Below are positions 4,533 through 58,031 of a stretch of DNA of 64,000 nt, one piece after another. The position numbers and the translations under genes were made by a program. Location of the stretch: the NCBI GenBank assembly GCA_963969595.1, contig OZ018417.1, forward strand, positions 17,858,501-17,922,500, given 5' to 3'. This stretch comes from Neckera pumila (taxonomy: Eukaryota > Streptophyta > Bryopsida > Hypnales > Neckeraceae). Every line of letters starts with the position of its first letter. Position 1 is the first letter of the stretch. The notes beneath the pieces were generated by a model. That model ran no database searches. It had not been told where the DNA came from and saw only the letters and a list, made by a program, of their open reading frames with translations.

Positions 4533-5463
4533 TTAACCCCTAAAAGCCCAAACACTGTTTTTTGGCAACATAGTGATTTTGGGCAGCTCACTATGAATGG
4601 AGTTTTTATTTTTTTTCTTTGAAATTTTCACACAACATTTTCTTGAAGAGTAGCTTTATGGCCCAACAATTTTCGTAACTTTAGACTACATGATTAAAAA
4701 GTTATTGTATGATATGTGATGTTTAGTGCTCGGCGGGCAGCTCAAAAAATTCTTAAAAAATCACTTTTTAAAAAAATCAAAATTTGAAATTGATTCTTTA
4801 GATTTATATGTACATGAAAAGCTTTGAATCATTCCATTTTGATTTAGGAGATGAAAATTATGAAGTGTTCTAGTTTGCGGGCAGTTATGGATTCCCTACT
4901 CTAAAATAAACTTTGAAATCCTTTATTTAACTCAATTTTCAATAGTTTTGAGAAAAAAATAAAAGTATTGGGTGTAGATTGCTTATTACATCATTATAGC
5001 CATTGAGATTGGCATTCATCAATTCCATAATTAAGTTCTTAACAATTTTGTGTTTTGGATCATTCTCTACTTCTTTCTACTTACTATTTTTTTCCTGTAT
5101 GTTGTGCAATTTTAAATGATTTGAAATTTTTCAAAAACACAACCAACTTGATTTTAAAAATGAATCCAAAGAATAACCACCATTTTGGACATTTTTTCAT
5201 AAAAATGTGACCTTGTGAAGTGCAACTGCCCGGATTTTCGCAGAGACAAAAAGGATTTTTTTCAATTCAAACACTAATATCTTGCAATCTACAAGGTGGA
5301 AAATTCTGAAATTTTTTCCACATCTTCTCAAACCAGTGCACTACAAGATATTACGGTTACATATGTCCAAAAATTTTTCTTTTTTAAAATTTGATACTTG
5401 TATTAGAAATGGCAGTTTTGGAGCGTTTTTGGTGAAAACATAGTCAAATACATTTAGGGTTAA
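4533..5463 (+). mobile_element. TTAA-flanked piggyBac-like MITE, subtype B
   Basis: Begins TTAA-CCCCTAAAAGCCC and ends CATTTAGGG-TTAA, about 0.93 kb. The interior matches 39546-40479 along its length, including GGGCAG motifs near 4573, 4735 and 4880 and a CTGCCC near 5228. No transposase coding. Plus here means the GGGCAG-rich end lies at the lower coordinate. Confidence 0.75.
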
Positions 5464-6576: not shown

Positions 6577-7818
6577 TTAGCCCCTAAAGTTCCGTGACTC
6601 ATTAGAAGAGATTTGAGGCTTCCAAGAGACTGCGAGTTATCCTGCGTTCCTGCAGCGTTTCCAGCCTGTAGAACGCAAGAATGCTGCTGGGTTGATGTGG
6701 TCAAGAGAGTGCCACGTCATTTTCGAAAAAATAAAAATAAAAAAATTGGTCTGAAATGATATTTGGGAGAGAAAAAAATTTATTTATTTTTATTTTATTT
6801 TTTGAAAAAAATAAATTCTGACAGCCTGTACCGGTTGTTTTCAGATCTAGCCAGATTGGGAAACGGGCCTAAAACGGCCCTCCAATGCCCTCAAATATCT
6901 TCTAATGATGTAATCACCAAAAATGCTCCAAAATTGCCATTTCTAATACAACTACCAAATTTTTGGAGAAAAACAATTTTTGACACATGTAACCATAGGA
7001 TCTTGTTGTATGATGTATTAACAACATGTGGTAAAATTTTTAGAAAATTCCACTGTGAAGATCAAAAGATATAAGCATCCAAAGTCTCCAAAACCATTTT
7101 TTCAATCTTGCAGCAAACCAAGCAGCTGCATTTCACAAGCTCATTTTTCAATGAAAAAATTTCCAAAATGGTGGTGCTTCTCTGAATTCAATTTCCTAAA
7201 CAAGTTGGCAATATGCTTGAAATTTTTCGCATCATTTGGAATTGTATAACATACAGGAAAAATATAGTAAGTAGAAAGAAGTAGATAATGATTCAAAACA
7301 CTAAATTGTTAAGAATTTATTTATGAATTAAAAAAGTGCCAATCCCAACGGTTGAAATGTTGTAATAATCAATCTATATCCTAAGATTTTTTTTTTTTCC
7401 AAAAATATTGAAAACTGAGTCAAATAAACGATTACAAAGTTTTTTTAATAGTAGAGAATCTATAACTGCCCCAAAACAAAAAAAACCTCATAATTTTTGA
7501 CTCAATGATTGGAATGGAATGATTCAAACCTTTCCACGCATATATAATTGTAGAAAACCGGTTTCAAATATTTATTTCTGAAAAAATTATTTTTTTTAGA
7601 TTTGTTCAAACTGCCCGCTTGGTGAAAAAAGTAATATATTAGGCCATAACTTTTGACTCGTATTTCCAAATGTCATGAAATTTAATGCACATGAAAGATA
7701 TTCCTCGTCCCCAAGTTCTATTAAAATTTTAGTCCAAAATATTTAAACCTCTAGTCACAGGTACTTGCCCAAAATTTCTATAATGCCAAAAAACGCATGC
7801 TGGTCCTTTAGGGGTTAA
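6577..7818 (-). mobile_element. TTAA-flanked piggyBac-like MITE, subtype B, split by another MITE
   Basis: The right end is GGTCCTTTAGGGG-TTAA (7815-7818). The left end is TTAG-CCCCTAAAGTT (6577 on), where TTAG is TTAA with one change. The two halves are separated by a 308-bp element at 6600-6907. Removing it rejoins GTGACT to ATGTAATCACC, as in the intact copy at 39546-40479. The original length was about 0.93 kb. Non-coding. Confidence 0.75.
6600..6907. mobile_element. MITE with CATTAGA termini (family 2), nested copy
   Basis: The ends are CATTAGAAGAGATTTGAGG and the inverted CCTCAAATATCTTCTAATG. A second copy is at 8484-8756. It lies inside the piggyBac-like element 6577-7818, so it is younger than that insertion. 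No clear target duplication beyond the TA within the ends. Non-coding. Confidence 0.75.
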
Positions 7819-11731: not shown

Positions 11732-11890
11732 TTAACCCCTAAAGGACCAAACTGTGTTTTTTTGGCAACATAGCGATTTTGGGCAGCTCACTACGAATGG
11801 AATTTTTTTTTTCTTTGAAAATTTAACACAACATTTTCCCAAGGAGTAGCTATAAGGCCCAATAAAATTTCATAACTTTTGAATAGTTGG
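11732..11890 (+). mobile_element. Truncated piggyBac-like MITE, left end only
   Basis: TTAA-CCCCTAAAGGACC followed by the subtype B start (TTGGCAACATAGCGATTTTG, then GGGCAG). Homology stops near 11890. Confidence 0.7.
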
Positions 11891-12452
11891 CTAAAATGGC
11901 TCCTCCATCCTTAAAGTTACTATTTCCAAAAAAATAAAGAAGTGGAAGCAGTGGAAGCAAGTCCAACCTTAATATGAATCATATTCATAAAACTTGAGCA
12001 AAAGATGGCTATAAGAGCTTATAAGTGAGTAGACCGCGACATTGCATCACCAGTGTGTATGTTAATTCTAATAGATTTGTTTATCATAATAAGGTTATAA
12101 TAGAAAAAAGATAACTTTGATATTTGCAATGCTTACACCCAATTCAGATTTAATCCAATCCATTCTCCTCTAAGATCTTTAACCTCTAAAGGATCAACTA
12201 TCCATTTCAAAACTGTCAAACATCATATTTGATCTAAATATAGTTTCTAAAATTGTGTACAAATATTATTTTTATATTTCTAATACATGATATTATGGAT
12301 TGTCTATCATTACAGAAAATTCAATCTGTTTTGTAAAACATTGTCATTGTTATTGTTTTGTGGCAAAAAGTGAAAACAAATTAGTGAATATAACAAAACT
12401 AGTCAAATTAGTTTGATTTTTTTCAAGAACTACAAGTCGCAATGGAGATTGA
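11891..12452. other. AT-rich DNA, no gene seen
   Basis: No gene, element ends or shared repeat recognised. Confidence 0.4.
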
Positions 12453-16742: not shown

Positions 16743-17311
16743 TTAATCCCTAAAGTCCCATTGTCCCTATGGGGGAAAAAATGGATTTCGGGCAGGTTCC
16801 TATGAGCTCAATTTTTGGTGAAACTTTCTGAAACTTTTCCATAAGATAGAAAAACTTATTAGTTTTTTGGGAATGTAATTTTTATTTCAATCGGTGCATA
16901 GGAGCAAAAGTCATGCTACAATAACCTCAAAACGGGGGAGACCGGGCAGCAAGAAAAATCTATAAAAAATTGAAATATTTTTTTTAATAGATTATATTTT
17001 TGTCTAAATAGGAAGCTTTGATTCAATCCATTTGGATTAGTGGTGTGAAAGTTATAGAGTTTCTTGTTTTGCGAGCAACCAAAGCATCTTATTGAAAAAA
17101 CTTTTTCTTTCACTTTAAATGCTGATATTTTTCAATACGTATGGTCAAACATCACAAAATTTTTACCACATGATCTGAAAAAAGTATAATAAAAGATCCT
17201 GCAGTTAGATTCTAATTTATTTATTTTTTTAATTTCTTGGATGAATGCAACAAAGGTAGCAATCTTGAGTGATTTTTGATAGAAAAATGGCCTTGGGACT
17301 TTAGGGATTAA
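16743..17311 (+). mobile_element. Short TTAA-flanked piggyBac-like MITE, subtype A
   Basis: The ends are perfect 18-base inverted repeats, TTAATCCCTAAAGTCCCA and TGGGACTTTAGGGATTAA, including the palindromic TTAA. Total 569 bp, so it is a deleted version of the 0.93-kb form. GGGCAG motifs are near 16789 and 16944. Non-coding. Confidence 0.85.
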
Positions 17312-17860: not shown

Positions 17861-18341
17861 GCAAAAGAAAACCCATCTTAGTGTGCCACCCACCATCATC
17901 GCAAACAGGTCATAATTTTGAATCCACCTCTTAATGAACCAGACCCTGGCTTCCTCCCCACAAATAAGACTTCTCATCTACAACCTATATATTGTGTCCC
18001 ACTCTATACACCCATAATCAGCAAGACTCAGCCAAATGCACTGCATGAGTTTCAGTAGTTGTCATTAAATGCCGCATCGTTACCCTCAATCTAGAGTATC
18101 CAAATAATACCGTGCAGAGTGCCATTCAAATGTTGCTCACTCCATTGAATAAAGTCACAGTATTTCATTTTAGTAGGGCAAACTTTCACTACATTACAAG
18201 TCCTAATTCTTAAAGTTTCATTTGCAAATCCCAACTTTGATAGATTGTAGAAGGGCAATAAAAATTGTAATGTGCAAGATTTGGAACTTTGGAACGTGAA
18301 GCATGAGAACTACTTCATACTACGTCTCAAGGCCCATTCAT
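17861..18341. other. No gene seen
   Basis: Unclassified intergenic DNA. Confidence 0.4.
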
Positions 18342-18694
18342 TAGAGAAAATTTTAGCCCACTGTTCCACAGCCCTCCAAAGGACATTGAAATAGTGTTTT
18401 TCGGGGCTGAAAATTTGTTTTTTGCTCTATTTGTGCGCAACATTTTTTGCTATGACAGTGGCGCAAGAACCCAAATTCGCAAGTAAAAAATTAATTATAT
18501 ATATATTATCTTTAAAAAATAATTAAAAAATTAAATTAAGGGAAAAAAAAAATCTGTGAAATCTAACTGCTCTAGTGAGCAGTCATACATTTTGACTGCT
18601 CACCAAAGTCACTTTTCCAAGTTGACAAGCCATGCATGAAATAGCATGGTATGTCAACTTGGAGCAGCCCTCCTATAGGCTGAAATTTCCTCTA
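18342..18694. mobile_element. TA-flanked MITE, GAGAAAATTTCAGCC family (family 1), copy 1
   Basis: TA-GAGAAAATTTTAGCC on the left, GGCTGAAATTTCCTC-TA on the right, about 353 bp. It holds a conserved internal hairpin (18613-18661, arms CCAAGTTGACAAGCCATGC and its near complement) and a block AGTGGCGCAAGAACCCAAAT. Other copies: 19027-19388, 32938-33299 and 45972-46310. Non-coding. Confidence 0.8.
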
Positions 18695-18853: not shown

Positions 18854-19756
18854 TCAACCCCTACAGGACCAATATGCATTTTTTGGATACATAGAAATTT
18901 TGGGCAGATCTGTGTGATTGGAGATTTTCATATTTTTGGCCTAAATTTAAATAGAAGGTGGAGACTAGGAATATCTTTCATATGCACTAAATTTCATGAC
19001 ATTTGGAAATTTGAGTAAAAAGTCACTAGAGAAAATTTCAGCCCACGAGAGGGCCGTTCCAAGTTGACATGCCATACTATTTTATGTATGGCTTGTCAAC
19101 TTGGAAAGTGCCTTGGTGAGCAGTCAGAGAGTACGACTGCTCGCCAGAGCAGTCAGATTTTGCAGATATATATTCTTTAATATATATATATTTTCAAATA
19201 TTTTTTTAAGATTTAAAAAAATATATATTAATTTTTTACTCACAAATTTTGATTCTTGTGCCTCTATCACAACAGAAACTACTGCGCGGAAATAGGGCAA
19301 AAAATGACTTTTCAACCCCCAAAAACACTATTTTATAGTCCTTTGGAAGGTTGTGGAATAGCCCTCCGGAGGCCTGAAATTTTCTCTAATATTATGGCCT
19401 AAAATGTTGCTTGTTTTTGTAATTGGGCAGTTCGGGCAGATAAAAAATAATCACTTTTTTTTAGAAACAAAAAATCCAAATTGGTTTTCTAGAGTTACGT
19501 ATACATAAAAGCTTTTAATCATCCCATTTTGATCAATGAGTCAAAAGTTATGAAGATTTTTAGTTTGGGGGCAATTATGGATTTTATACTCTAAAATAAA
19601 CTTTGAAGTCCTTAATCTTACTCAAATTTCAATATTTGTAGAAAAATAAAATCATAGGACGTAGATTATATATAGTATAGTACAACATTGCAACCATTGG
19701 GATTGGCATTTTTCAACTCCATAATTAAATTCTTGGCAATTTAGTATTTTGAATCA
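18854..19756 (+). mobile_element. piggyBac-like MITE, subtype B, interrupted and 3' truncated
   Basis: Starts TCAA-CCCCTACAGGACC (TTAA changed at one base) and follows the 39546-40479 sequence. A family 1 MITE sits at 19027-19388. Homology stops at 19756, exactly where a CACTA end begins. GGGCAG motifs near 18903, 19429 and 19438 are conserved. Confidence 0.7.
19027..19388. mobile_element. TA-flanked MITE family 1, copy 2, nested
   Basis: TA-GAGAAAATTTCAGCC on the left and CCTGAAATTTTCTC-TA on the right, 362 bp, inside the piggyBac-like element 18854-19756. The related uninterrupted copy at 35949-36863 reads AGTTCAC-TA-CC at this point, which supports duplication of a single TA. The internal hairpin (19067-19110) is inverted relative to copy 1. 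Confidence 0.8.
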
Positions 19757-19892
19757 CACTATAAAAAACCCGCGTTTTAGGTGACATGTCCAGATTTTTT
19801 GGAACGGATTTGAAGTGACATCTATGTTGACATCTAGCTGTTTTTATGTCAACACACTTTACAATTAATTCTATGGGCTCCAAATTTTCACC
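19757..19892. mobile_element. CACTA MITE left-end fragment
   Basis: CACTATAAAAAACC followed by GCGTTTTAGGTGACA matches the left end of the complete element at 26776-26995. The right end is missing; the next piggyBac-like element starts at 19893. Confidence 0.65.
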
Positions 19893-20863
19893 TTAACCCC
19901 TAAAGGACCAAGGCCTTTTTTCTGCCAAAAAACACTAAAAACTGCCATTTCTATAGCAAAGAGTAAAAAAAATTGAAAATTGTTTTTTTTTTACATCCAA
20001 CCATAGGATCTTATACCCAACTAGTACGACAATGTGTGGAAAAAATTTCAGAATTTTTGACCCCACAAATTGCAAGATATCTGCATTTAAAGTGAAAAAA
20101 ACAAGTTTTTCAGCACATTGCGGGACTAGATTTTTTGACTTTGAACATTTTTAACTTTAATTTTTTGCACTACAGAGTTTTGAGCTTTTAATCTTCATAG
20201 TGGAGAATTGAGTTGAGAGTCTGTGGGTGTGTGGGTGTGTGGGTGGTGGGGTGGGTGGTGGTGGGGGGGGGGGGGAAATCCAAAAAAAATTAATTTTCAT
20301 TACTAAAAAAAATATTAAGTAGAAGTAGGTACGAGATAGAAGAAAAATCTAAAATATTAATATCTTTTATATGGAATTGAAAAACACTAATTCCAATTGT
20401 GAGATTGTTCTAGCAAAAAAACTAGACCTTGTGGAACTTCTTTTCTTGAAAAATTGTAAAAATTGCATTCAAAAATGAATCCTACAAGTTATTTTTTTTA
20501 GGAAGATGCTCTAAGTGCCCGAAAAACAAGATTGTCCATAACTTTCTCATAACAAATCCAAATGAAATGAATCAAAGCTTCCTAGATAGACAAAAATATA
20601 ATCTATAAGTAAAAATAATTTAAAAAAATTAAAAAAATAAATTGCAATTTTTTTTTGTTGCCCCACGTCCCTTGTTTTGAGCTTATTTGGGCATAACTTT
20701 TTTTCCAGGAACCAATTGAGAAAAAAATTATGTTCTTATAAAGCTTAGCAATTTTTCTATCTTCAAAAAAAATTTCAAAAAATCACAACAAAAATTCAGC
20801 CCGTAGGTACCTGCCTAAAATCCCATTTGTCCCTCGCAGGGACAATGGTCCTTTAGGGGGTAA
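19893..20863 (-). mobile_element. TTAA-flanked piggyBac-like MITE, subtype A
   Basis: TTAA-CCCCTAAAGGACC on the left and GGTCCTTTAGGGG-GTAA on the right (GTAA for TTAA), about 0.97 kb. The interior matches 50828-51758 throughout, in the same orientation. A G/T-rich simple tract has expanded at 20220-20273. Non-coding. Confidence 0.8.
20220..20273 (+). repeat. G-rich simple repeat (GGGTGTGT, GGTGG, G run)
   Basis: A stretch of GGGTGTGTGGGTGG-type units ends in a run of about 13 G. It lies in a piggyBac-like element; the homologous place near 51150 lacks it, so it expanded after insertion. Confidence 0.65.
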
Positions 20864-21365
20864 TCCCTAAAGGACCAAGTGTCCGTTCAACGTACACAAG
20901 AAATCCCAAGTAGGTTCCTAATAAGTCATTTTTGGTTGGATGTTCATGAAATTTGGATACAATGTATAAATATGTATCTCCTTGGTGAAAAACTAATTTT
21001 TTTTTAATCCGGTGCCTAGATCAAAAGTTATACTGCCTTGAACTTTTAGGGCAGCTCGGGCAATTTGGGAATCTTTTTTGGAAAAAGAATCATCAACTTT
21101 TTTAATTTGGCATATATGTAACTAATAAAATATGGCATACAATTGTCCAAGAAAAAAAAAAATTTAGTTTTCAAATCACATTCTAAGAGGAGTCAACTTT
21201 GTTAGCTAAGTTGGGGCGATTTCAAGAAAAAGTATTTTCTTCTAACTTTAAGGCCTATTATCTTGCAATCTAGGAAGTCAAAATTCTTGAAATTTTTGCC
21301 ATATATATCAAATGTTTGTCTCTAACTTTTCGCTGTTTGGATTTCAAATAAAAAATTTCTTCATT
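20860..21365 (+). mobile_element. piggyBac-like MITE, subtype A, truncated at the right
   Basis: Starts TCCCTAAAGGACC directly after the shared GTAA that also closes the previous element. The interior resembles 16743 on (AAATCCCAAGTAGGTTCC, GGTGCCTAGATCAAAAGTTA). The right terminus is not found. Confidence 0.6.
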
Positions 21366-28562: not shown

Positions 28563-29141
28563 TTAACTCTAAAAGACCAAAGCACGTTTTAGGCAGAAAT
28601 TGTAAAAAATTGCCACTTTAGGGGGGAAGATGAAGAAAAAAAGAAAAAATTATTTTTCTTTTCAAAATTCAACCCTACCAATTTAATTAGACTACTGTGA
28701 ATGCGTAGAAAAATTTCAAAAACTTTGACAGCACGGATGAAAAGATTATTATGTTTGACGTTAGAAGAATTTTTATTATTTTGAACTTGTCCAACAAGGC
28801 TATAAAGTTAACTCCACCAAGAGTAAGATTTTTACACTACACATGGATTTTTTGACATTTACATCTTGTGTCATAAAAGTTATATACCTACCAACTTTCA
28901 AAAATAAAAGAGGACTTTTGCACAAGTTGCTTGGAGCTACCCGGATTGCTAGAAAACCTCAAGGCAACATAACTTTTGATTTGGGCACCCGATCGGAATA
29001 TATTAATATAATCAGGCTAAGGGATACATGTTTACACCTTGTGTCAAAATTTTGTGAACATCTAACCAAAATTGATTGTGTGCATAACTACCCTAGATCT
29101 CTTGTGTACGTTGAATAGTCACTTGATCCTTTAGGAGTTAA
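28563..29141 (-). mobile_element. Short TTAA-flanked piggyBac-like MITE
   Basis: TTAA-CTCTAAAAGACC on the left and GATCCTTTAGGAG-TTAA on the right, 579 bp. The interior is strongly diverged from the other copies but keeps the GGCAGAAATTGT start and the AAAAATTGCCA segment. Non-coding. Confidence 0.7.
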
Positions 29142-29293: not shown

Positions 29294-29770
29294 TTAACTC
29301 CTAAAGTCCCATTGTCCCCTTAGAAGACAATATGGATTTCGGGCAGGCTACTAAGGCTTCAAAATTCATCATTATTTTCTAAAACTTTTTGTGAAGATAG
29401 AAAAATACATTAGCTTCATGGGAATATAATTTTTATTTCAATCGGTGCCGGCAACAAAAGCTATGGCACAAAAGGTCCTTTTTTTTGGTGCGGCGGGCAG
29501 AAATCTTCTCATACGAAAAAAATTTAAGAAAATTTAAAAAATTATTTTCTCATGGATTGTAATTTTATCTATATGGAAAGCTTTGATTCATTCCATTTGA
29601 ATTTGTTATGTGAAAGTTATGGACAATCTTATTTTTTGGGCAATTAGAGCATCTTCTTGAAAAAATAACTTGTAGGGCTCAATTCTGAATGCAATTTTCA
29701 CAAATTTAAAAAAAAATTGTTTGACAAGGCTAAGTTTTCTTGCTAAAACAATCTCACCATTGCAATCATT
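29294..29770 (+). mobile_element. piggyBac-like MITE, subtype A, right end missing
   Basis: TTAA-CTCCTAAAGTCCCATTG, then GGATTTCGGGCAGG, and the subtype A interior up to the AACAATCTCACCATTG segment near 29765. No right terminus found. Confidence 0.65.
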
Positions 29771-31045
29771 GTTGATCATTAGCAACCGCATCCAAATTGC
29801 AATCCATATTACATCCAATTTCACTTTGTCTTCTTAATGTTAAGAAAATTGTATTGAAATTCAATACAAATAGTCAAGATGTCAAATGGAATTGGAAAGG
29901 GTTGAAATTGAACTAAGAAATAATGAATTCATAAGTTGAATGTAGGTAACCATGATTTATTCACATAGCAAAGGATTTATTCACATAGCAAAGGATTCAT
30001 TCATTTCCTTTAATTTACAATGACATTTTTTATTCATCTTTGCGATCATAAATAAAGGAAATAAATAAAGTCATATTAGCATCATTCCCCTCTATGATTT
30101 GCAATAGAAAGCTATATTGAATAGGGATTTTAAGGGGATCCATATTAATTAATTGACATTTCACACTATATAGATATCTACTTTTGTTGTGCATCAATAG
30201 TTAGTGAAGTGTGTAGGGCCTGTACATCATATTCTAAACATCTACAATTTTCCACAATAAATCCCTCTAGTTTTTCGGTCCCCGTCATATCCCTATTTAG
30301 TATAGATGATTTTATTTTGACTAACTGTGATATGTTTTTTGTAATAAATATTGTTGACAAAATATTTAGGAGTAATTCTAGATTTTCCGTTCTTTTGAAT
30401 TCAATAAGTCTAATATGTGCTACCACCAAAATGACAATTATAGTAATCTTTCTACTTTATACATACTAACATATTTCAAGTAGCCAAGTCTCACTCTTTC
30501 AAAAATTAGAGAAGGTTTATCTAAGAGTATATTTTCATATTTAAAAGAATGGACATTTAATTCATGGCAATCATTAAATCAATCGGAATTCTTCATTCAT
30601 CTTCTTGGTTTCTATGGTAGATAAAAAGTGCACTGGATTTTAAGTGATTGCTCATAAATGACTAAAAAGCTCATTTGGGGATTTTGAAGTGGTTCATCCA
30701 ATTGATTGTAAGATGTTTTTTACTTGAACTTTGAAGAACAATTTTTTTCTACAATTTGTAAATGCGTAGTTCACCTTTCAATACAAGTGCAGTAAAAAGT
30801 ATGCATCTTACAACTTGTACAAATCAATGATATGTTGTTTTGAAATTTAGTTGAAAATTTAGTTGAAAATCCATATATAATTTCAATGAGAAAAGATTGA
30901 AAATAAGCAATATTTTAAGCACATCAGTCAAGCCCACATTGACACATTAAAGATGAAATTGGACAGAACTTTGCAATTACTAAATATAAATTCTATAAAT
31001 TCTAAAAAAAATTGATCTGAATTCAAGATAATCTTTCAATAGACA
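29771..31045. other. AT-rich DNA, no gene seen
   Basis: A 20-bp direct duplication (TTATTCACATAGCAAAGGAT) lies at about 29958-29998. No gene or element recognised. Confidence 0.45.
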
Positions 31046-32626: not shown

Positions 32627-32937
32627 CAAGAGAAAGGGGTGTTTTAAGTGAGTTTTTAAGTATAGTCCTAGACACATGATTTTAAGTAATGACAATATGA
32701 TGGTGATATAGATCAAAATTGTAAATCAATTTAAAGTTCTTAATTTTTTCTACAATATTGTAGATAAATAGAATTTATTTTAGTCAATTTATACTTCCTT
32801 CTTTGGTATTTAACAAGACAAATATAAATCCCACATGCATTAGTGGATTTGATGCTTGATTATTTGATTTAATATTTTTTAGAGTATATTGTTTGCAACC
32901 TAATTTGACATTGAAATAAAAATAAATTATTACCCAT
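32627..32937. other. AT-rich DNA, no gene seen
   Basis: No gene or element recognised. Confidence 0.4.
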
Positions 32938-33299
32938 TAGAGAAAATTTCAGGCCTCCAGAGGGTTGCTCTACAATTCTCCAAAGGACCTTGAACTTTAA
33001 TTTAATGGGGCTGAAAATTGTTTTTCCCCTATTTTCGCGCAGCAGATTTTGCAGTGACAATGGCGCAGTAAGTCAATTTTGCGAATAAAAAATTAATATA
33101 CATATATATTTAATCTTAAAAAGAATTAAATTTAAAAAAAAAAATTTAAAAAGAAGAAGTACGAAAGCTGACTATTTTAGCAAGCAGTTAGTCAAGCTAA
33201 CTACTCAACTAGGGCCATTTCAAGACTGACAGGCCAAGCTTGAAATAGCTTGGCCATATCAATCTGGAGCAGCCCTCTAGAGGGCTGCTTTTTTCTCTA
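32938..33299. mobile_element. TA-flanked MITE family 1, copy 3
   Basis: TA-GAGAAAATTTCAGGCC on the left and GGGCTGCTTTTTTCTC-TA on the right, 362 bp. It carries the AATGGCGCAGTAAGTCAA block and an internal hairpin at about 33218-33268 with its own variant arm sequence. Non-coding. Confidence 0.75.
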
Positions 33300-33445: not shown

Positions 33446-34362
33446 GATTCACTAAAGGCCCAAAGTCCCCTCGAGGGACACTTGGGATTTTAGGCAGGCT
33501 CATGTGACTTGAAATTTTGGCCTGATTTTTTGAATTTTTTTTTTAAACTTTAGCTTTCTAAAAATATTTTTTTTGCAATCAATGCTTGGGAGCAAAAGTT
33601 TTGCCACCCGAAGTCAAAAAAGTAACTCGCCGGGCAGAAAAAAAAAATTGTAAAAAATTGTGTTTTTAAAAAAAAAAATTCTTCTTCAAGATTCATGTTT
33701 TGGTCTACATTTGAAGCTTTGATTCATTCTATTTGGACTTAGAATGAGAAAGTTATATCCAACCTTGTTTTTCGAGCAATTTGGCATCTTTTTCAAAAAA
33801 TAACTTATTTAATTCATTTTTGAATGCAATTATCAAATTTTTTTTCAATATTTTTTTTGAAAAAATTAAGTCTGTTTGCAAGAACAATCTCATTGTTGGG
33901 TTTATGGTGTTTTAATTCCACCTAAGAGCTGTTAACAATTTAGTGTTTCATTCAATTTTGGACCTACTTCTATATAACAATTTTTTATATGTGAAAATCA
34001 AGTTTTGACATTCTAAACCCGACTCTCAACTCAAATGTTCAACATAAAAAAATTTAACCCAAAGGTGTATAGTGCAAAAAAAATCTACAAACGGCCATCA
34101 AAGTCATCTGAAATTGCAGGCCACAGTTCAAAAAAACTTCTTTTTCCAACTTCAAATGCTAATATCCTCCAATCCGTACAGTCAAACTTTATGAAATTTT
34201 TACCACATAATCTAAGACAACTGAAGTACAAGATCCTGTAGTTAGATTCTAAATTTTTTTAATTTTTTAATTTTAATTTTTAATTTTTTGAGTGATCGCA
34301 GTAGAAATGGCAATTTTCAGTGGTTTTAGAGCCAGAAAATACCTTGGGCCTTCGGGGATTAA
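33446..34362 (+). mobile_element. piggyBac-like MITE, subtype A
   Basis: The right end is GGGCCTTCGGGGA-TTAA. The left end is decayed (ATTCACTAAAGGCCC). The full subtype A interior is present, including TTTTAGGCAGGC, GGGCAGAAA and the terminal AAATGGCAATTTTCAG. About 0.92 kb, non-coding. Confidence 0.65.
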
Positions 34363-35948: not shown

Positions 35949-36863
35949 TTAATCCCTAGAAGACCAACATGCGTTTTTTGGCTATATAGCAATTTTGGGC
36001 AGGTGCATGTGATTGGAGATTTCCATATTTTTGCCTAATTTTTAATAGAAGGTGTGGACAAAGAATATCTTTCAAATGCACTAAATTTTATGACATTTGG
36101 AAATACGAGTAAGAAGTTCACTACCTAATATGTTATTTTTTTTTAAATAGGCAATGCGAGCAGATAAAAAAACCACTTTTTTTACAAAAATTTGAAATTG
36201 GTTTTCTTGAGTTACATATACGTGAAAAGCTTTTAATCATTCTACTTTTTGATCAATGAGTCAAAAGTTATGAGGAGTTTTTGTTTGCAAGCAGTTATAA
36301 AGTCTCTATTCTAAAATTAATTTTGAAGTCCTTTATCTTAGTCAATTTTCAATATTTTGAAAAAATAAAATCATAGGATGTAGATTGTTTGTTACAATAT
36401 TGCAGCCATCGGGACGGCATTTTTCAATTCCATAATTAAATTCTTAACTATTTTGTGTTTTGAATAATTTTCTACTACTGCCTACCTACTATTTTTTTCC
36501 TATATGTTGTACAATTCCAAACAATTTTCAAGCATGTGGCGAACTTGTCTAGGAAAAATATAACAAAGAAGCACCACCGTTTTGGACATTTTATTATAGA
36601 AAAGTGAGCTTGTGAAGTACAGTTGCCCTATTTTTTGCAAGGCCCCAAAAATGAGTTTATTGAATTTGAATGCTCATATCTTGCAATCCACATAGTGGAA
36701 ATTTCTGAAATTTTTACCCCATGTTCTCAAGTCAGCATACTCAAAGATCCTACGGTTATATGTGTCAAAAATAATTTTTTTCTAAAAACTTGGTACTTTT
36801 ACTAAAAATGGCAGTTTTTGAGCTTTTTCAATGAAAATATAGTTATGGAACTCTAGAGGTTAA
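35949..36863 (+). mobile_element. TTAA-flanked piggyBac-like MITE, subtype B
   Basis: TTAA-TCCCTAGAAGACC on the left and GAACTCTAGAGG-TTAA on the right, 915 bp. Colinear with 39546-40479 and, apart from nested MITEs, with 18854-19756. It provides the uninterrupted reference for the MITE at 19027-19388. Confidence 0.8.
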
Positions 36864-37354: not shown

Positions 37355-37788
37355 TTAATCCTTAAAGGACATTCCAAGCCCCTCGGACCTTCTACCCAGG
37401 CCGGAATAACTAGAAGTGCTGGAGCTGGTATCAACAACTCTTTTGAAAAAATTGGCACATTTTTTTTCGCTCCTCCCAATATGTATTGGAATCTTGATTG
37501 TTGGAGGAAGCCTATGCTCATCATCAGTAAGTACAAAGGTCAAGGCGCATCTTTCCCAAGGTTACCCGAGGGAGAGAGCGCTTTAGTTGAGAGCACTTCA
37601 ATTGAGGTTATTGAGAACTCACCACAAAATCTATCATGTTGCTTGACCCCTCTGAACACACTGTGCCAGATATTCCTTGGACTGCACACCTAGAAACAAA
37701 AATGTCCTTTAACCCTAAAAAGGACCATAAGGCCACCAAGTGACTTTTGCAACTCGATTTTTTGCAACCCTAGTCCTCTAGGGGTTAA
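37355..37788. mobile_element. Small TTAA-bounded elements, piggyBac-like ends
   Basis: Three TTAA-type junctions are seen: TTAA-TCCTTAAAGGACATT (37355), TTAA-CCCTAAAAAGGACC (37709) and GTCCTCTAGGGG-TTAA (37785). The last two bound an 80-bp miniature with the family ends and almost no interior. The first pairs with AATGTCCTTTAA at about 37703-37712. The interior of 37370-37700 does not match the long copies. Confidence 0.55.
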
Positions 37789-39446: not shown

Positions 39447-40515
39447 CTTTTTGTAGTCAGTTTTTGTTATGTTTTTTCTGCTCTCTGTACTCATTTCTCT
39501 TCATTGTCCAGCCTTTGGCTTGCCTGTTTTGTATTGGGTGTTTTTTTAACCCCTAAAGGACCAACATACGTTTTTTGGCCGTATAGAAATTTTGGGCAGG
39601 TACGTGTGACTAGAGATATCCATCTTTGAAGCTGAAATTTTAATAGAAGGTGGGGGCGAGGAATATCTTCATGTGTACCAAGTTTCATGACATTTCAAAA
39701 TACAAGTCAAAGGTTGTGACCTAATATGTCACTTTTTTTTGTAACTGGGCAGTTTGGGCAGATAAAAAATAAATAAATTTTCTGGTACTTTTTTTTTGAA
39801 ATTGGTTCTCTACATTTATATATACTTAAAAAGCTTTGAGTCATTCCATTTCAAGCAATGAGTCAAAAGTTATGAGGGTTTTTGAATTGTGGGCAGTTAT
39901 GGATTCTCTACTCTAAAAAAACACTTTAAAGTCGTTTATTTAACTCAATTTTCAATATTTTTGGAAAAAAATAAAATCCTAGGATGTAGATTCATTATTA
40001 AAACATTACAACTGTTGGGATTGGCATTTTTAAATTCCATGATTAAATTCTTAACAATTTAGTATTTTGAATCATTTTCTACTTCTTTCTACTGACTATT
40101 TTTTTTCCTATATGTTGTACAATTTCAAATGATGTGAAATTTTTCAAACATATAGACAACTTGTTTAGGAAACTAAATTCAAAGAAGCACCACCTTTATT
40201 GGCATTTTTCATTGAAAAGTGAGCTTGCAAAGTGCAGCTGCCCGGTTTTTTGCAGGATTGAAAAAATGGTTTTCAAGACTTTGAATGCTTATATCTTATG
40301 ATCCACACGGTGGAATTTTCTGAAATTTTTACCACATGTTTTCAAAATACCATAGTACAAGATCCTATAGTTACATGTGTCAAAAATTGTTTTTTTTCCA
40401 AAAATTTGGTAGTTGTATTAGAAATGGCAGTTTTGGAGCATTTTTGGTGATTACATAGTCATGAAACTTTAAGGGTTAATGCAATGGTTCATCCATTTGT
40501 TCGAAAAGAAAAAGA
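39447..40515 (+). mobile_element. LINE 3' tail fragment, split by a piggyBac-like insertion
   Basis: 39447-39549 matches the LINE tail at 49575-49668 (CTCTTCATTGTCCA, CTGTTTTGTATTG). 40476-40515 continues it (TTAATGCAATGGTTC, matching TTAATGCAGTGGGTTC at 49665 on) into an A-rich end. The two parts are separated only by the element 39546-40479. No coding part of the LINE remains here. Confidence 0.85.
39546..40479 (+). mobile_element. TTAA-flanked piggyBac-like MITE, subtype B, reference copy
   Basis: TTAA (39546-39549), a 926-bp body starting CCCCTAAAGGACC and ending ACTTTAAGGG, then TTAA (40476-40479). It lies in a LINE tail whose other copy has one TTAA at 49665-49668. This directly shows duplication of TTAA with no other change at the site. 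The GGGCAG motif is near 39593, 39747, 39757 and 39893, and CTGCCC near 40240. No transposase frame; presumably mobilised in trans. Confidence 0.9.
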
Positions 40516-41095: not shown

Positions 41096-41441
41096 CACTT
41101 CTGTAGTGCATCCCCAATGCTTCCCCAATGCTTCCTATTAAGTTAGTCCCGGGGGCTCTTCAGTTGCAGCAGCGGGAGGGTAGTGGGGAGATCGAACTGG
41201 GGGTTTAAGCTGAAGCTGAAGCTTGCGGATTTGGGGATGATCCTCGGGGTTGTGCCAATGCTAGAGCTTCGCGTGCTCGGAGAGTGCATGACGACGGGGC
41301 CGATTACGCTTATTTGTTGCATGTTGTGGTGAGAATGGATGGTGAGGTTAGTGGCGAGTGGGTGGAGCGGTGGTGAGTGAGAGTTGTGTTTGAGGGGAAT
41401 TTGGGTGAGAATTTGGGTTTGGGTTTGGGATAGGGAGAGAG

Positions 41442-43118
41442 ATGGTGGCGCGAGTTGAGGATTGTTTTCTAGGAAAGGAACCAGGACTGAGAGCGTCGTC
41501 GCACAGCAGATGGAGGTGGAGCCCCGGGGTGGGGCGGGAGGGCGGCGATTTTTTGCCGAACGGAAGCTCCTTCGGCGATGTTGCAAGGAGTGGGGCTTTA
41601 CTCCCGACGACGTTGACGAGCTCCAGCGTGGGAGGGTTCTCGAAGGGGCTGCTCAATGTCCACGGTGCCCACCTCGGCGGCAGGGTGCAGCCCCATCCCC
41701 ATCAGAATGTCGACTCCGGCATTTTGTCCTCGTTCGTGAGCAGCTACTTGATGCACCAGCAGCATAGTAGTTCAGCAGCTGCTGCTGCTACTGTGGCGAC
41801 TGGGCGTGCCGGGGCTTCGGCCTTGGCCCCAGGAACAGCCGCGAGCCTCGCTCGCAACCCCTCGTTTGAGTCCATCAACAACATCGGCTCATGCAGTACT
41901 CCAAGTTTTTGCGTTGGATCACCGGCGACGGTCTGTCCTTCGCGCCCCTCTGACTCGGGAAGCAACAACAAGCTCTCACCTGGCAGCGCTGCTGCTTTCT
42001 CCGAGTCGAGGGTGGTTCTGGCCCAATCCCAGCTGTCCGACCACTACCTCAGCACTGATAGCCTGAGCTACGGCAGCATGGAAGAACGCGACGCGATCGT
42101 CAATTGCGTGGAAGACTTCTGGACGGGGGAGCCTCTCCCCGAGTTCCGATTCGAACCAATGCTAGACGACACGGCGGACACAGGCGCCTGCGGGGCGCTT
42201 ACCTTCGAATTGGACAACCCCCTGGTGACCACTAATCATGGACCCCGGGCCGCGCGGTTGTCCTCGATGACAGCCCCGGCGGCTCCCGATTTCTGCCAGT
42301 CGTTCTTCGCTGGCGTGGAAGCCGAAGTGGAGCAGAAGCCGCTCGCGGCGACGTCTAGCAAACCCACACACCTCGCAATTCCAGCACGCGGCGTCCCTTT
42401 CATTGCGAGCTCGGATCACCACCCGCGTCTCCGCTGGTCGGACGAGCCGTGGATGGGGACCTCCCCCCCGAAGTTCTCGAATCCGCATGGATTCGAGAAG
42501 TCTTCGCCGAGCTCGCCCACCACGCCTCTGGACCCGCACTTGTTCGCGTCGTCGAAGCTGATTTCTGAATTCTCGAGCACCACCGCCACCGCCACCAGCA
42601 CTACCACCAACAAGCGCTCGTTCATGACCATGCAAAGCGGGAGCGAGAAGCCCGAGCCTGCAGCAGCGCCACTTTCCCTGCCATTGCGCCTCCACGGCGG
42701 TGGTGCGTCGAACGCGGACAAGTTCGACGCCGCCGCGTTGAGCGCGCTTCTTTACAGCAACAATCAGAACAACGAGTTTCGGTCGGCGTACATAGTTCCG
42801 ACGTCGACGACGTCCCCCACTCTGAATGCGCCAGCGCCCAAGCAGCGGCGTCGCCACGGGACCGCCACGGATCCGCAGAGCATCGCGGCGCGCACGCGGC
42901 GGGAGAAGTTTACGGACCGCATTCGCGTTTTGCAGAGCCTGGTGCCAAATGGGGAGCGTCTGGACACGGTGCACATGCTCAGCCAGACATTCGAGTACGT
43001 GCGCTTCTTGCAGCACAAGGTGTGGGACCTTTACAATGGGAAAGATTCGCTCGCGGAAGTGAAGTGCGAGAAGTGGAAGGAGTTCGTGGACACCACCACT
43101 GGACAGGTGATTGTCTGA
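41442..43118 (+). CDS. bHLH transcription factor, plant subfamily VIII-like (RSL/HEC-like domain)
   Basis: A 558-residue protein in one uninterrupted frame. Nuclear DNA-binding regulator by family. The bHLH domain is at the C-terminus, residues about 467-531: a basic cluster KQRRR (467-471), then TDPQSIAARTRREK (476-489), helix 1 to VLQSLVPNG (496-504), and helix 2 DTVHMLSQTFEYVRFLQHKV (508-527). At the three base-contacting positions it has Gln479, Ala483 and Arg487. Ala in place of the usual Glu is known for the HEC/IND/RSL-type groups, which suggests a modified E-box preference. The long N-terminal part is low complexity (Ala-rich at about 111-135, Ser/Pro/Thr-rich) with an acidic Trp/Phe-containing segment near 213-245 (EERDAIVNCVEDFW) that could activate transcription. 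At 558 residues it is longer than most RSL or HEC proteins. The ATG at 41442 is the first in this frame after an in-frame stop. The exact subgroup is uncertain: the loop and helix 2 (GERLDTVHMLSQTF) are unlike the standard RSL/HEC sequence. Confidence 0.88.
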   Translation: MVARVEDCFLGKEPGLRASSHSRWRWSPGVGREGGDFLPNGSSFGDVARSGALLPTTLTSSSVGGFSKGLLNVHGAHLGGRVQPHPHQNVDSGILSSFVSSYLMHQQHSSSAAAAATVATGRAGASALAPGTAASLARNPSFESINNIGSCSTPSFCVGSPATVCPSRPSDSGSNNKLSPGSAAAFSESRVVLAQSQLSDHYLSTDSLSYGSMEERDAIVNCVEDFWTGEPLPEFRFEPMLDDTADTGACGALTFELDNPLVTTNHGPRAARLSSMTAPAAPDFCQSFFAGVEAEVEQKPLAATSSKPTHLAIPARGVPFIASSDHHPRLRWSDEPWMGTSPPKFSNPHGFEKSSPSSPTTPLDPHLFASSKLISEFSSTTATATSTTTNKRSFMTMQSGSEKPEPAAAPLSLPLRLHGGGASNADKFDAAALSALLYSNNQNNEFRSAYIVPTSTTSPTLNAPAPKQRRRHGTATDPQSIAARTRREKFTDRIRVLQSLVPNGERLDTVHMLSQTFEYVRFLQHKVWDLYNGKDSLAEVKCEKWKEFVDTTTGQVIV

Positions 43119-45971: not shown

Positions 45972-46310
45972 TGGAGCAAAAATCAGCCTTCTAAAAGGCT
46001 GCTTCAAGTTGACATGCCAAGCTATTTCAATCTTGGCCTGTCAATTTGAAAAAGTGCCCTTGGTGAGCAATCAGAGTGTATCACTGCTCACCAAAGCAAT
46101 CAGATTTCGTAGTTTTTTATTTTTTATTTTTTTTATTTTTATTTTTATTTTTATTTTTTATTCGTAAATTTGGGTTCCTGTGCCACTATCACAGCAGTTT
46201 CAACTGCACAAAAATAGGGGAAAAAATAATTTTTTAGACCCGACAAATAAAATTTTAGGGTACTAAAGGGGTCCGCGGATCAGCCCTCTGAAGGGCTGAT
46301 TTTTTCTCTA
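45972..46310. mobile_element. TA-flanked MITE family 1, copy 4
   Basis: TG-GAGCAAAAATCAGCC on the left and GGGCTGATTTTTTCTC-TA on the right, 339 bp. The internal hairpin is AAGTTGACATGCCAAGC... with its partner at about 46030. Non-coding. Confidence 0.7.
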
Positions 46311-46889
46311 ATGAAGCCCATGTAGACACCAAGCTTTGGTGCTCTCTCTCGTACTCCAAGACCCAACTTTCTACTAGTGAAAGTAGACTCATTTGTCCAC
46401 CCCTAAGCAATGTCATCATGGAGGTTTGAGTATACACCAATTAATTAGGCTCTTTAGGTTGTCCTACACTATTTTTTGACACTTTGTGCTCATTTTTACA
46501 ATCATTTGAAATGGGATTTGGTCGAAACTTCTTGAAGTGTATTTAAGGTTTCTCTAGAAAAAGAATTTATTCACTAACATTCAGAAAAGAACTAGTGAAG
46601 AAAACCGATACTTGTTTGACATACTCACCTTGACTGCATGATATTGATGAATCTTCTCCAATTGGTTTGTTTGGTGAATTTACAACATTTGACAGTTTGT
46701 CAGATATTTTGCCCCCTTTTTTTTTGAAAGAAAAGGGGAGTCGTTTGACTTGTTGAATAGAATTTGATAGAGTCTGGAATTGCATCATTTCATCAAAATA
46801 ACTGCAAAAGTCGTATGAAGTCATCTGTCCCCTGATTGATCCTACTTTTTACTCTCATCAATTCCACAACCCTATGTTCAGGAAGAACC
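46311..46889. other. No gene seen
   Basis: Unclassified AT-rich DNA; the minus-strand frame at 46567-46824 has no recognised motif. Confidence 0.4.
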
Positions 46890-48769: not shown

Positions 48770-49703
48770 CAGGCAATATTCGTACTTTGGAGTATGACCC
48801 CAGACGTTGGTTTTGGAGCATTGGTAAACAGTTATTATCTTATACCACATCATGTGGCAGACTACTCCTCACCCAACATCGTCAGCCCAAACAAACAATT
48901 CCATCAAAGTGGCCCAATATTTTAGCTCCTACTTTTGAACCTGACTGGAGAGACGTATGGCTCAAGGTGTGTTCTCAAAAGGAAGCAGCCTTTATGTGGT
49001 CTGTATGGCACAATGCAGTAGCAGTTTATTCGTAGAGGGCCAAAATTAACCCGGACTTGGACATAGCCTGCAATTGTTGCTCAACTGGGTCCAATGGAAT
49101 ACCCAGTCATAGATTCTACCACTACCCCAGAGCACACAAAGTTTGGGACTATGCTCAATCAATCTTACAACACTTACTAGATGAACAACCTGTTAGGGGT
49201 CCTCATGTGCGTTTCGACCATACACTATGTATTTTTGGCTCAACTCTACCTCGACGATTCTATGACTTCCAAATCATTTGGTCCCTATTAAGAGGATTGT
49301 CACTTTGGCTAATCTGGATCGCTCGGAACCAGAGGTATTTTCTCACACATTGTGGCCACGTGGTCTCTTGCAACAAGCACTATGGGACTCGCTTCTTGAC
49401 TCAGGCAGAACGACGTTACTTAAGGCTCAAATGACCGCCAGGCTCCAACTTCACCTTGCGGCCTCTGCATGGCTCAAATTTGATTACATTTGGTTGCGTT
49501 CTAAGTTGTTAGCATCAACGGAGGGTGGCATTATTAGGTGGCAAGGGTGTGGCCCTCCTGTTTGTAGTTTTACCTAGGGTTCTTTGATTTCTTTGGTCCT
49601 TTTTGCTCATTTTCTCTTCATTGTCCAACCTCACGGCTTGGCTGTTTTGTATTGTGGTTTTTTTTTAATGCAGTGGGTTCTCCCCATTTATTCAAAAAAA
49701 AAA
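48770..49703 (+). pseudogene. LINE (non-LTR retrotransposon) ORF2 3' end, broken
   Basis: The frame from 48787 reads a segment typical of the plant LINE reverse-transcriptase zinc-binding region: FMWSVWHNAVAVY, then RAKINPDLDIACNCC, HRFYHYPRAHKVWDYA and LSLWLIWIARNQR. It is interrupted by a TAG at 49033-49035. A frameshift near 49330-49350 moves the rest (LLQQALWDSLLDSGRTT...) to another frame, ending at about 49575. A 3' UTR with CTCTTCATTGTCCA and a run of about 16 A (49687-49703) follows. The 5' part, including the polymerase domain, is missing, as is usual for truncated LINE insertions. Confidence 0.8.
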
Positions 49704-50224
49704 AAAAAATTTGTAATGGTGACAATAATTGGCCTTGTGTTTCTATTTGAAGGGCCCACCAGAAAAAACCTACATAGCGTGGCAATCATCACAATTCAAT
49801 AGGCCTACGGTAGTGGTGTACTTATGGGAAAAGGGATTTCATTTCTTGATAAAACCTATCGGACCTTCAAACTGGCGCTCTAGCTAGGCACCCATTTGAA
49901 GAACCATAGGGATACTTTATATATATACACACATCCTACTCCATTTGTTTAGCTTGAATTTGTAGCTAGTAGTATACAACATAGAAACTTAAAATCAATG
50001 TTTCATTCCATTAAGCATTTCGAAGGATACACGGGAACATGTATATGTGAAGCATTGAACTCAATTGAGTATAATTTAATTCCTGGATCATTGTGCAACG
50101 GAGAACAACAAAAGTTTTGGTAGATATGTACAATCTCAAATTGTTGGTATGCTTTGTGAGTTTTTTAAAATTAAAATATAGGAATATATATTAGATTTTT
50201 GAAATCTTTAGTTTTTATTTCAAT
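49704..50224. other. No gene seen
   Basis: Unclassified AT-rich DNA. Confidence 0.4.
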
Positions 50225-50745
50225 TGGATATCTGCATGGTTTGGATTGCTTGTTCACTAAATCTTACCATTAGAATTTATGTGTTTCAATTCCATCACAG
50301 AGTTATTAGCAATTTAGATTTAATTAGTTTTATTTTTGCCCCTACTTCTATGTAACAATTCTTTAAAGAGTGAAGGTCAAGTTTTTTTTTGAATATTTTT
50401 CTTTAATCTGTCCACCCAATTCCCCACCATAAAGGTCAATTTTGTCATTTTGTGGCAAACATCTTTGGTGCAAAACTTCAACTAAAGAAGATTCAAAGTC
50501 TTATAATTTAATATGCATTTGGAACCAAAAAAAGTGTATTTAAATTTCTTTTAAACACTAATATCTTACAATCTACATTGTCAAAGTTTTTGAAATTTCT
50601 TCCACGCATTCTCATACTAGTCTCGTGCAATATCCAATGGTAATATATGCCCCTTCCCTCCAAAATTAATTTTCACTTTTCTCTTAGCATTACCGTGAAA
50701 AGGAAGTTCTTGGGTGGGAGTTTTTGATAAAATATAGTCAAGGCG
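50225..50745 (+). mobile_element. Decayed right half of a piggyBac-like MITE
   Basis: Follows the order of the right half of the family: TTTCAATTCCATCACAGAGT, CTACTTCTATGTAAC, AACACTAATATCTTACAATC, TTTTTGATAAAATATAGTCA. The termini are lost. Confidence 0.5.
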
Positions 50746-50827
50746 GAATGGCTGTGGTATTAAACTTAAATAGAAATTACTAAAAAAACTTCAACATTAC
50801 AAAAAAGTAGCCCACCTATTGCTAATA

Positions 50828-51758
50828 TTAACCCCTAAAGGACCAAAGCCTTTTTTCTGCCAAAAAACTCTCAAAACTGCCATTTCTAGAGCAAAGAGTA
50901 AAAAAAACTAAAAATTGTTTTTTTTGCACATCTAACCATATGATATTATACCTAACTAGTATGAGAATGTGTGGGAAAAATTTCAGAATTTTTGACCGGA
51001 CAAATTGCAAGATATCTGCGTTTGAAGTGAAAAAAACAAGTTTTTCAGCACATTGTGGGAGTAGATTTTTTTACTTTAAACATTTTTAACTTAAATTTTT
51101 TGCACTACCGAGTTTTGAGATTTAAATATTTATAGTGGAGAATTGAATTGAGAGTCTAGGAAAAAAAAAGAAATTCAAAAAAACTTAAATCTCATTCTTA
51201 AAATAATTGTTAAGTAGAAGTAGGTATAAGATAGAAGGAAAATCTAAAATATTAATATCTTTTAGATGGAATTAAAATGCACTAATTCCAATGGTGAGAT
51301 TGTTCTAGCACAAGAACTAAACCATGTGGAACTTTTTTTTTTGAAAAATTGCAACAATTGCATTCCAAAATGAATCCTACAAGTTATTTTTTTCAAGAAG
51401 ATACTCTAAATGCCCAAAAAACAAGATTGTCCATAACTTTCTCATAAAAAATTCAAATGAAATGAGTCAAAGCTCCCAAATTGACAAAAAAAATAATCTA
51501 TAAGGAAAGAAAATTTTAAAAAAAAAATCAAATTTTTTGCAAATTTTTTTTGTTGCCCCCTCTCCCTTGTTTTGAGCTTATTTGGGCATAACTTTTGTTC
51601 CCGGGCACCGATTGAAAAAAAAATTATATTCCCACAAAGCTTATCAGTTTTTCTATCTCCAAAGAAGTTTCAGAACATCACAACAAAATTTCAGCCCATA
51701 GGTACCTGCCTGAAATCCCATTTGTCTCCCAAAGGGACAATGGTCCTTTAGAAGTTAA
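50828..51758 (-). mobile_element. TTAA-flanked piggyBac-like MITE, subtype A
   Basis: TTAA-CCCCTAAAGGACC on the left and GGTCCTTTAGAAG-TTAA on the right, 931 bp. Near-colinear with 19893-20863, but without the G-rich expansion. Non-coding. Confidence 0.85.
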
Positions 51759-52221: not shown

Positions 52222-52325
52222 TTAACCCCTAAAGTCCCATTGTCCCATCAGGGGACAAAATGCAAGCTACTGCAGCTTCAATATTCATCATTATTTTCTG
52301 AAACTTTATTTTAGAGGATATTTTA
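52222..52325 (+). mobile_element. piggyBac-like MITE, left-end fragment
   Basis: TTAA-CCCCTAAAGTCCCATTG followed by about 90 bp of the subtype A start, ending at GAAACTTTATTTTAGAGG. Confidence 0.6.
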
Positions 52326-57012: not shown

Positions 57013-58031
57013 TATATCCCTAAAGTCCAAAGGCCTTTTTCCCATTTAAAAACTAAAGACTAAAAACACACACACACTCAAAACTGCCATTTCTATTGCA
57101 AAGAGCAAAAAATTATTCTAATTCTAATTCAATTATTATTGTTATTGTTATTGTTATTGTTATTGTTATTGTTATTGTTATTGTTATTGTTATTGTTATT
57201 GTTATTGTTATTGTTATTGTTATTGTTATTATTATTGTTATTATTATTGTTATTATTATTATTATTATTATTATCATTAATATTTTATTATCATTTTATC
57301 ATTATTTCATATCTAAATGTAGGATCTTGTTTTCTTCACTTTAAATGCAAATATCTTGCAATCTATGTGGTCCTTGACTAAAATTTTTGTCTCTTTTTAA
57401 CTCAAAATTTTTGCACCACTAATTTTGAATTTCTAATTTCTTATGCTAAAGAATTGAGTTGAGAGTCTAGGAATTAAAAAAAAATAATTAATCAGTTTCA
57501 CTCATGAAAAATTTCTTAAGTAGAAATAGGTTTGAGATTGAAGGGAAAACTAAATTGTTAATAAATCTAAGATGGAATTGAAGCATACTAATAGTGAGAT
57601 TGCTCTAGCAAGATATATCAACCTTGTGATACTTTTTTTTGAAAAATTTGAAAAATTGTGAATCTTGTAAGTTATTTTATCAATAAGATGCTTTGATTGT
57701 CCAAAAAACAAGATTGTCCATAACATTCACATATCAAATCCAAATGGAATGAATAAAAGCTTTTCATGTAGATAAAAATACAATCTATGAGAAACAAATT
57801 TGTAAAAAAAATTATTATAAATTTTTGTGGAATTTTTTTGCATTGAGCTATAATTGTACCATAGCTTTTGCTCTCAGGCTTTGATTGAAATAAACAATTA
57901 TTTTCCACCAAAAATGAATGTATTTTTCTTTTTTCACAAAAGAATTTAGAAATTTCCGGCAATTACTAAGGCTATAGCCTACCTAAAGTCCATTATGTCC
58001 CTTGAAGGGACAATGGAACGTTGGACATTAA
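57013..58031 (-). mobile_element. piggyBac-like MITE, subtype A, with microsatellite expansion
   Basis: The left end TATA-TCCCTAAAGTCC (TTAA decayed) is followed by the subtype A sequence in the same orientation as 50828-51758 (AAAACTGCCATTTCTATTGC). The right part (CCATTATGTCCCTTGAAGGG, ACATTAA) is diverged. Contains the repeat at 57131-57290. Confidence 0.6.
57131..57290 (+). repeat. (TTATTG)n microsatellite
   Basis: About 15 uninterrupted GTTATT hexamers (57139-57229) followed by ATT/GTT interruptions. Frames reading poly-Leu or poly-Ile/Val across it are artefacts. Confidence 0.95.

Follow-up and report, generated by a model that had tools for sequence, protein, structure and literature searches.

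The 64,000 nucleotides of moss DNA analysed here (the window) contain a TTAA-flanked element inserted in the 3' tail of a LINE, and the locus raises the question of which transposon superfamily such an element belongs to and which enzyme moves it. The initial annotation read it as a piggyBac-like miniature transposon. We arrive, with a probability of about 95%, at a closely related reading: the element is a moss non-autonomous DNA transposon of the piggyBac superfamily, which would depend for its movement on a DDE_Tnp_1_7 (DDD) transposase acting in trans. It has no long open reading frame and can be a member of that superfamily only as a non-autonomous derivative.

The insertion and its family

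The focal element is 934 nt long with both TTAAs counted, starts with TTAA-CCCCTAAAGGACC and ends with GAAACTTTAAGGG-TTAA. Its terminal inverted repeats are 9 bp long, CCCCTAAAG, with one base changed at the right end, and it is non-coding (longest stop-free run 76 aa). The sequence that it breaks up is a LINE tail, of which the window holds a second, paralogous example (Table 1). When the flanks of the focal element are joined, they align to this second tail with 83.5% identity over 103 bp, with a single TTAA at the junction, in agreement with the occupied and empty sites recognized initially. The accompanying claim, that insertion duplicated TTAA and altered nothing else, stands as far as the single TTAA of the empty site is concerned, but the T-run preceding the junction TTAA differs in length between the two tails and is the sole ambiguity.

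Profiles built from three copies of subfamily A and three of subfamily B detected 16 copies or fragments in the window, together 10,570 bp or 16.5%, slightly below the at least 18 copies or fragments and 11-12 kb (about a sixth) estimated before. Uninterrupted full copies span 915-971 nt, and deletion forms of 569 and 579 nt are present too. Aligned globally in one alignment, A copies share 47-57% identity with B copies. One full B copy is matched by the A profile in two segments (about 2-560 and 711-932), another continuously (2-932); a comparison of positions 545-725 of copy A3, in the middle of the body, with three B copies gave no clear match (best E 0.02). The alignment consensus has 27% GC, and a long reading frame is absent from every copy in the window. 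When the window was searched for piggyBac transposase sequence, neither tblastn nor a profile built from two sequences yielded a significant match, and Rfam at gathering scores gave none either.

Table 1. Positions in the window of the focal element, its empty site and related TTAA-associated elements
Feature	Position	Strand	Ends or basis
Focal non-autonomous element, subfamily A, full length	39546..40479	+	TTAA at 39546-39549 and 40476-40479
Paralogous LINE 3' tail with single-TTAA empty site	49606..49708	+	match to joined flanks
Subfamily A copy, full length	4533..5462	+	TTAA/TTAA
Subfamily A copy, ~300-bp insert close to right end	6577..7818	-	left TTAA, right CTAA
Subfamily A left-end fragment	11732..11898	+	profile match
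Subfamily B internal-deletion derivative, 569 nt	16743..17311	+	TTAA/TTAA
Subfamily A copy without right part, interrupted by another element at ~19027-19392	18854..19757	+	left flank TCAA
Subfamily B copy, full length	19893..20863	-	right end TTAA, left end TTAC
Diverged E-type copy, left end and part of right module	20860..21306	+	left flank GTAA
E-type element, 579 nt	28563..29141	-	TTAA/TTAA
Subfamily B left fragment	29294..29776	+	profile match
Subfamily B copy	33450..34362	+	right TTAA retained, left TTAA gone
Subfamily A copy, full length	35949..36863	+	TTAA/TTAA
Element of 434 bp, TTAA-flanked, similar ends TTAATCCTTAAAGGAC / TTAACCCCTAGAGGAC, unrelated body	37355..37788	+	outside the 16 copies
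Subfamily B right-half fragment	50235..50757	+	profile match
Subfamily B copy, full length	50828..51758	-	TTAA/TTAA
Subfamily B left-end fragment	52222..52313	+	profile match
Subfamily B copy split by ATT-rich microsatellite	57016..58030	-	right end TATA in place of TTAA

The family extends far beyond the window. In the 339.5-Mb chromosome-scale assembly (18 contigs, with the window on C10) we counted 4,015 A-type left ends with TTAA (≤2 mismatches) and 5,271 B-type left ends (≤1 mismatch, autonomous copies included); the control gave 0 in both cases. The initial description of a highly repeated family is borne out by these counts. Subfamily A would amount to about 1.1% of the genome if each A end represented a full copy, an overestimate wherever copies are fragments. 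A search with the full A element started from 8,070 first-look candidates and gave 40 scored full or near-full matches with 91-100% identity, 36 of them across positions 1-934.

The label 'miniature' fits the family in part. Like MITEs, the elements are non-coding, have terminal inverted repeats and are numerous, with thousands of left ends, but most full copies, at about 930 bp, exceed the usual MITE length, given as 50-800 bp in the relevant passage of PMC12550479, within which the 569- and 579-nt derivatives fall. 'Non-autonomous element' is for this reason the better term. The 434-bp element of Table 1 probably belongs to an additional non-autonomous family of this type.

Several other features lie in the window. 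The insert in the copy at 6577-7818 occupies 6593-6901, has inverted ends TCATTAGAAGA..TCTTCTAATGA and a partial relative at 8507-8706. A second element of about 360 bp, with terminal inverted repeats TAGAGAAAATTTCAG..., is present in four copies (19027-19392, 18340-18694, 32936-33299 and 45974-46312), one of them inside a piggyBac-type copy. On the minus strand, 61882-63984 encodes a Ty3/gypsy pol with RNase H, an integrase zinc domain, a Tf2-1-like SH3 domain and a chromodomain, which we take to resemble Tcn1-like chromoviruses of non-seed plants. A reading frame for a bHLH transcription factor (41409-43118, 569 aa) has full-length homologues. Among 20 matches, the best one with a name is a full-length moss protein, from Ceratodon purpureus (54% identity over 98%), which makes a moss the most likely source of the window; proteins named from liverworts and ferns match far more weakly, and the closest matches reach 65%.

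Longer elements encoding a transposase

The genome was searched for PF13843 (DDE_Tnp_1_7, the piggyBac transposase), which gave 872 first-look candidates and 116 scored matches on contigs C1-C11, all above the cut-off and the best with 276 bits; by hand count, the matched stretch is stop-free in 35 of them. We examined the best 20 of the 116, with about 10 kb around each. Element ends were sought as TTAA-YCY...RGR-TTAA pairs around the transposase domain and were accepted in 12 of these loci; this TTAA-demanding pair search assigned none to the other 8. At L016 the second-ranked pair was chosen, as it matched L015, L019 and L025, and the ends of L018 and L026 are probable. Since the pair search demanded TTAA, near-identity inside the TTAAs combined with differing flanks is the stronger evidence for the ends. 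L009, L010 and L011 are 98.8-99.2% identical over 5.63 kb, and therefore recent copies; L015, L016, L019 and L025 are 98.7-98.9% identical over 5.37 kb; and L021 and L027 are 99.4% identical over 7.3 kb, L017 being more distant at about 96%. In all three groups the flanking letters differ. Apparently autonomous piggyBac elements of 5.4-7.3 kb are present, then, in the same genome as the focal element.

The B-type ends of the window are found on 6 of the 20 loci, on elements of 5.6 kb or 7.2-7.3 kb. L009-L011 start with CCCCTAAAGTCCCATTGTCCC, and L017, L021 and L027 have the end CCCCTAAAGGACCATTGTCCC; these are the two B-type left ends in the window, and each of the six elements contains a DDE_Tnp_1_7 transposase match. 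Other autonomous families have different ends, namely CCCCTTGGGG in L015, L016, L019 and L025, CCCCTAAGCGC in L014 and CCCCAAAACG in L022. The reading frame of L011 comprises 621 aa (567 from the first Met) and matches PF13843 with a Pfam E of 1.7e-80, and piggyBac (PDB 6x67) with a phmmer E of 2e-34, the second alignment covering residues 79-547. Its motifs TIDEMM, TMDNFF and GVDVADQ align with the catalytic-aspartate motifs of the T. ni enzyme, in which we take the aspartates to be D268, D346 and D447, and all three are kept. Pfam confirmed DDE_Tnp_1_7 for L011 and L015; the triad motifs were examined in L011. As to the cysteine-rich DNA-binding region at the C-terminus of piggyBac transposases, the tail of the L011 frame is visibly Cys-rich, but Pfam gave DDE_Tnp_1_7 alone for this frame. 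The initial annotation proposed looking for longer relatives whose ends read TTAA-CCCCTAAAG and which carry the gene for a DDE_Tnp_1_7 transposase, and this genome does contain them.

Two structural variations were observed among these loci. An end of about 560 bp that is located 3' in L009-type elements sits 5' and inverted in L017, L021 and L027, the ends being swapped relative to the transposase gene between the two types. At L012 (7397-9840), L023 (7094-7900) and L028 (7453-9653), a tandem array of ~350-bp units directly follows a B-type right end; the number of units varies among the three, and in L023 and L028 the array terminates near a left-type end (TTAGYCCCTAAAGGACCATTGTCC). The arrangement resembles an enlarged version of the element with duplicated ends.

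The similarity between the B-type window elements and the six longer ones is not confined to the terminal 9-13 bp, and includes about 100-300 bp at each end. With nhmmer, the ends of L009-L011 match positions 1-209 and 678-932 of the B model (E 1e-22 to 1e-31), and those of L017, L021 and L027 match 1-100/105 and 633/642-932, giving common end modules of about 100-209 bp on the left and 255-300 bp on the right. The middles of the non-autonomous bodies have no nhmmer match to the interiors of these six elements. At the family level, sequence comparison identifies the transposase of subfamily B. Compared with the autonomous elements, the A model aligns well at the right end (E 1e-18 to 1e-24). 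Its left-end match is weak in L009 and L010 (E 2e-4 to 7e-4), and it finds no left end in L011, L017, L021 or L027. None of the 20 loci chosen from the 116 yielded an autonomous element that carries the A-specific left end (GGACCAACATGCG...) or a transposase source of subfamily A's own. Separately, an A-type left end at C1:16088201-16088234 lies 22 bp past a PF13843 match (C1:16087148-16088179) and may mark a non-autonomous copy within or next to a transposase gene.

If the mechanism described for T. ni piggyBac (PMC7351741) applies here, the transposase from the longer elements would bind the ends and cut them via a TTAA hairpin in a cut-and-paste reaction; the element would then insert into a TTAA, duplicating it, and re-excision would seamlessly restore a single TTAA. 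The elements of about 930 bp retain the end modules and lack the gene, and therefore would be mobilised in trans.

Target site, termini and competing superfamilies

The window has 23 occurrences of the end motif including TTAA (≤2 mismatches), compared with 0-2 in each of 20 Markov shuffles. For scoring of the target site, the models were stripped of TTAA beforehand. With these models, TTAA lies immediately outside 16 of 23 aligned window ends and outside 2 more after a 1-nt shift of the alignment, against a background TTAA frequency of 0.0068; 3 of the other ends have one mismatch to TTAA and the last 2 carry a different sequence. A search of the whole genome for the exact 30-nt A terminus, with TTAA left out of the query, gave 1,078 occurrences. 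Of the 100 places listed, 97 fall within the first 24.96 Mb of C1; comparison with the list of exact TTAA-containing termini shows TTAA outside 92 of these 97 exact A left termini. In the 8 best of 39 genome copies outside the window, TTAA is present at 16 of 16 ends (here the query included TTAA), and all 8 have the 9-bp inverted repeats CCCCTAAAG...CTTTAGGGG.

Nested insertions provide four empty sites beyond the LINE case, each with an exact TTAA duplication. The 5.63-kb element of L009 lies inside an A copy and that of L010 inside a B copy; with their flanks joined at one TTAA, these align 82% and 84%, respectively, to an uninterrupted window copy. On C10 and on C4, an A copy is nested in another A copy, and the rejoined flanks give alignments of 78% and 79%. 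At all four sites, the uninterrupted relative that matches best has a single TTAA at the insertion point; at the L010 site a second relative (B2) has TTAG. The scoring of further empty sites proposed at the outset has thus upheld the TTAA duplication.

These data bear on the alternative that the elements are Tc1/mariner- or PIF-like, duplicating 2 or 3 bp on insertion (TA, for instance, together with ACCCC..GGGT ends) and merely favouring TTAA sites. At any one site, a TA duplication within TTAA yields the same flanks. Over many sites, the outer T and A are nearly fixed, TTAA being found at 18 of the 23 ends in the window and at 92 of the 97 scored genome-wide, so that the duplication reaches TTAA and is not the TA or TWA of those superfamilies. 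Given also that the partner transposase is of piggyBac type, we regard this alternative as extremely improbable. Sola3 elements also target TTAA, and this shared target is what would suggest a Sola3-type origin; the partners with identical ends encode the piggyBac domain DDE_Tnp_1_7, which leaves that origin scarcely any probability.

The 4-bp TTAA duplication, seen at five empty sites in addition to the window and genome ends, would suit piggyBac and Kolobok elements alike, and movement by a Kolobok (THAP-type) transposase has to be weighed. The two superfamilies differ in their termini: CC..GG is given for piggyBac in a passage of PMC10045372, and the section on these elements in PMC2872659 names a CC[C/T]T motif together with TTAA as hallmarks, whereas Kolobok termini are described as 5'-RR and YY-3' in the corresponding part of PMC9587614. 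The termini here are of the CC..GG form. Because the same-ended elements moreover encode a piggyBac-type DDD transposase, we consider a Kolobok assignment next to impossible. The piggyBac reading, in turn, is supported by the same-ended DDE_Tnp_1_7 elements, the additional TTAA empty sites, the high copy number and the CC..GG termini.

Origin and relation to known piggyBac elements

As piggyBac is best known from animals, the sequences might not be native to the moss, and stem from contamination or a recent animal transfer. Of 240 database matches listed, most are nameless, and the species-named ones are animals and one microsporidian; a plant piggyBac was not among the species-named matches listed (best 120 of 1,313 and 120 of 2,077, obtained with animal-like protein queries). 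Against such a source, the transposase matches are spread over C1-C11 of a chromosome-scale assembly, there are thousands of ends genome-wide, and the best database proteins examined are merely 29-41% identical. A tree was built from 11 of the 20 moss domains and 31 proteins from the 240 listed matches, which derive from animal-like queries and include no other plant. All 11 moss domains group in a single clade (support 100/100); the branch leading to it is long (0.77), and at least five lineages diverge deeply within it. In this animal-biased sample without other plants, the tree speaks against recent transfer from the sampled animals, and from the sequences we infer a vertical age for moss piggyBac. 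Element ends had 0 matches in viral contigs (two patterns) and prokaryote contigs (one pattern). We judge contamination or recent animal transfer very unlikely.

A native origin can be stated more fully: mosses would have their own deep, vertically kept and still-mobile piggyBac clade, with several autonomous lineages and more than 9,000 TTAA-flanked ends, mostly presumed non-autonomous. We hold the chances of this fuller version to be evenly balanced. On the evidence of the sequences compared, piggyBac appears to have resided in a land plant for a long time and to have been active there recently.

The moss elements resemble T. ni piggyBac (IFP2) and Myotis piggyBat in TTAA duplication, CC..GG ends and a DDD transposase of the same Pfam family. 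They differ from both in the distant sequence of the protein (the phmmer E of 2e-34 to the PDB entry) and in a land-plant host with thousands of non-autonomous ends, and from T. ni piggyBac in length, 5.4-7.3 kb versus about 2.5 kb (2472 bp in the description of the element in PMC10813416). The coral CMITEs and AmiPB, as presented in the section of PMC2872659 devoted to them, are likewise non-autonomous, with CCC ends, TTAA duplication, several families and autonomous relatives alongside. In that account the CMITEs measure about 100 bp, whereas the moss elements are about 930 bp long and share end modules of about 100-300 bp with longer elements.

The label 'PiggyBac' has been applied to plant hosts before. 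The repeat table of PMC6890710 lists 1,230 such elements (122 kb) in the fern Ceratopteris richardii, and the label also appears in the reviews PMC10004981 and PMC10794571. The entries concerned are counts or lists, in which intact transposases, element ends, empty sites with TTAA and recent copies are not described. PMC10619864 was rejected as a source on plant piggyBac, the pertinent text merely containing the word 'piggybacking'. Our literature search found no description of an intact, recent or moss piggyBac. Elements of this kind are already known; what is new is their host group, their scale and the presence of recent autonomous copies.

Moss piggyBac explains a repeat fraction that would hardly be named by a MITE survey of 207 genomes in which one of two tools had a limit of 800 bp and families were assigned to five superfamilies and Micron (PMC12550479). 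A native moss piggyBac with near-identical copies makes scarless natural transposition in land plants directly testable, offers a plant-adapted piggyBac transposase for comparison with the insect enzyme, and raises the question of when land plants gained or lost piggyBac. If the moss clade is indeed deep and still mobile, it would give land plants their first natural cut-and-paste system that leaves no footprint, and piggyBac would be a major shaper of this genome.
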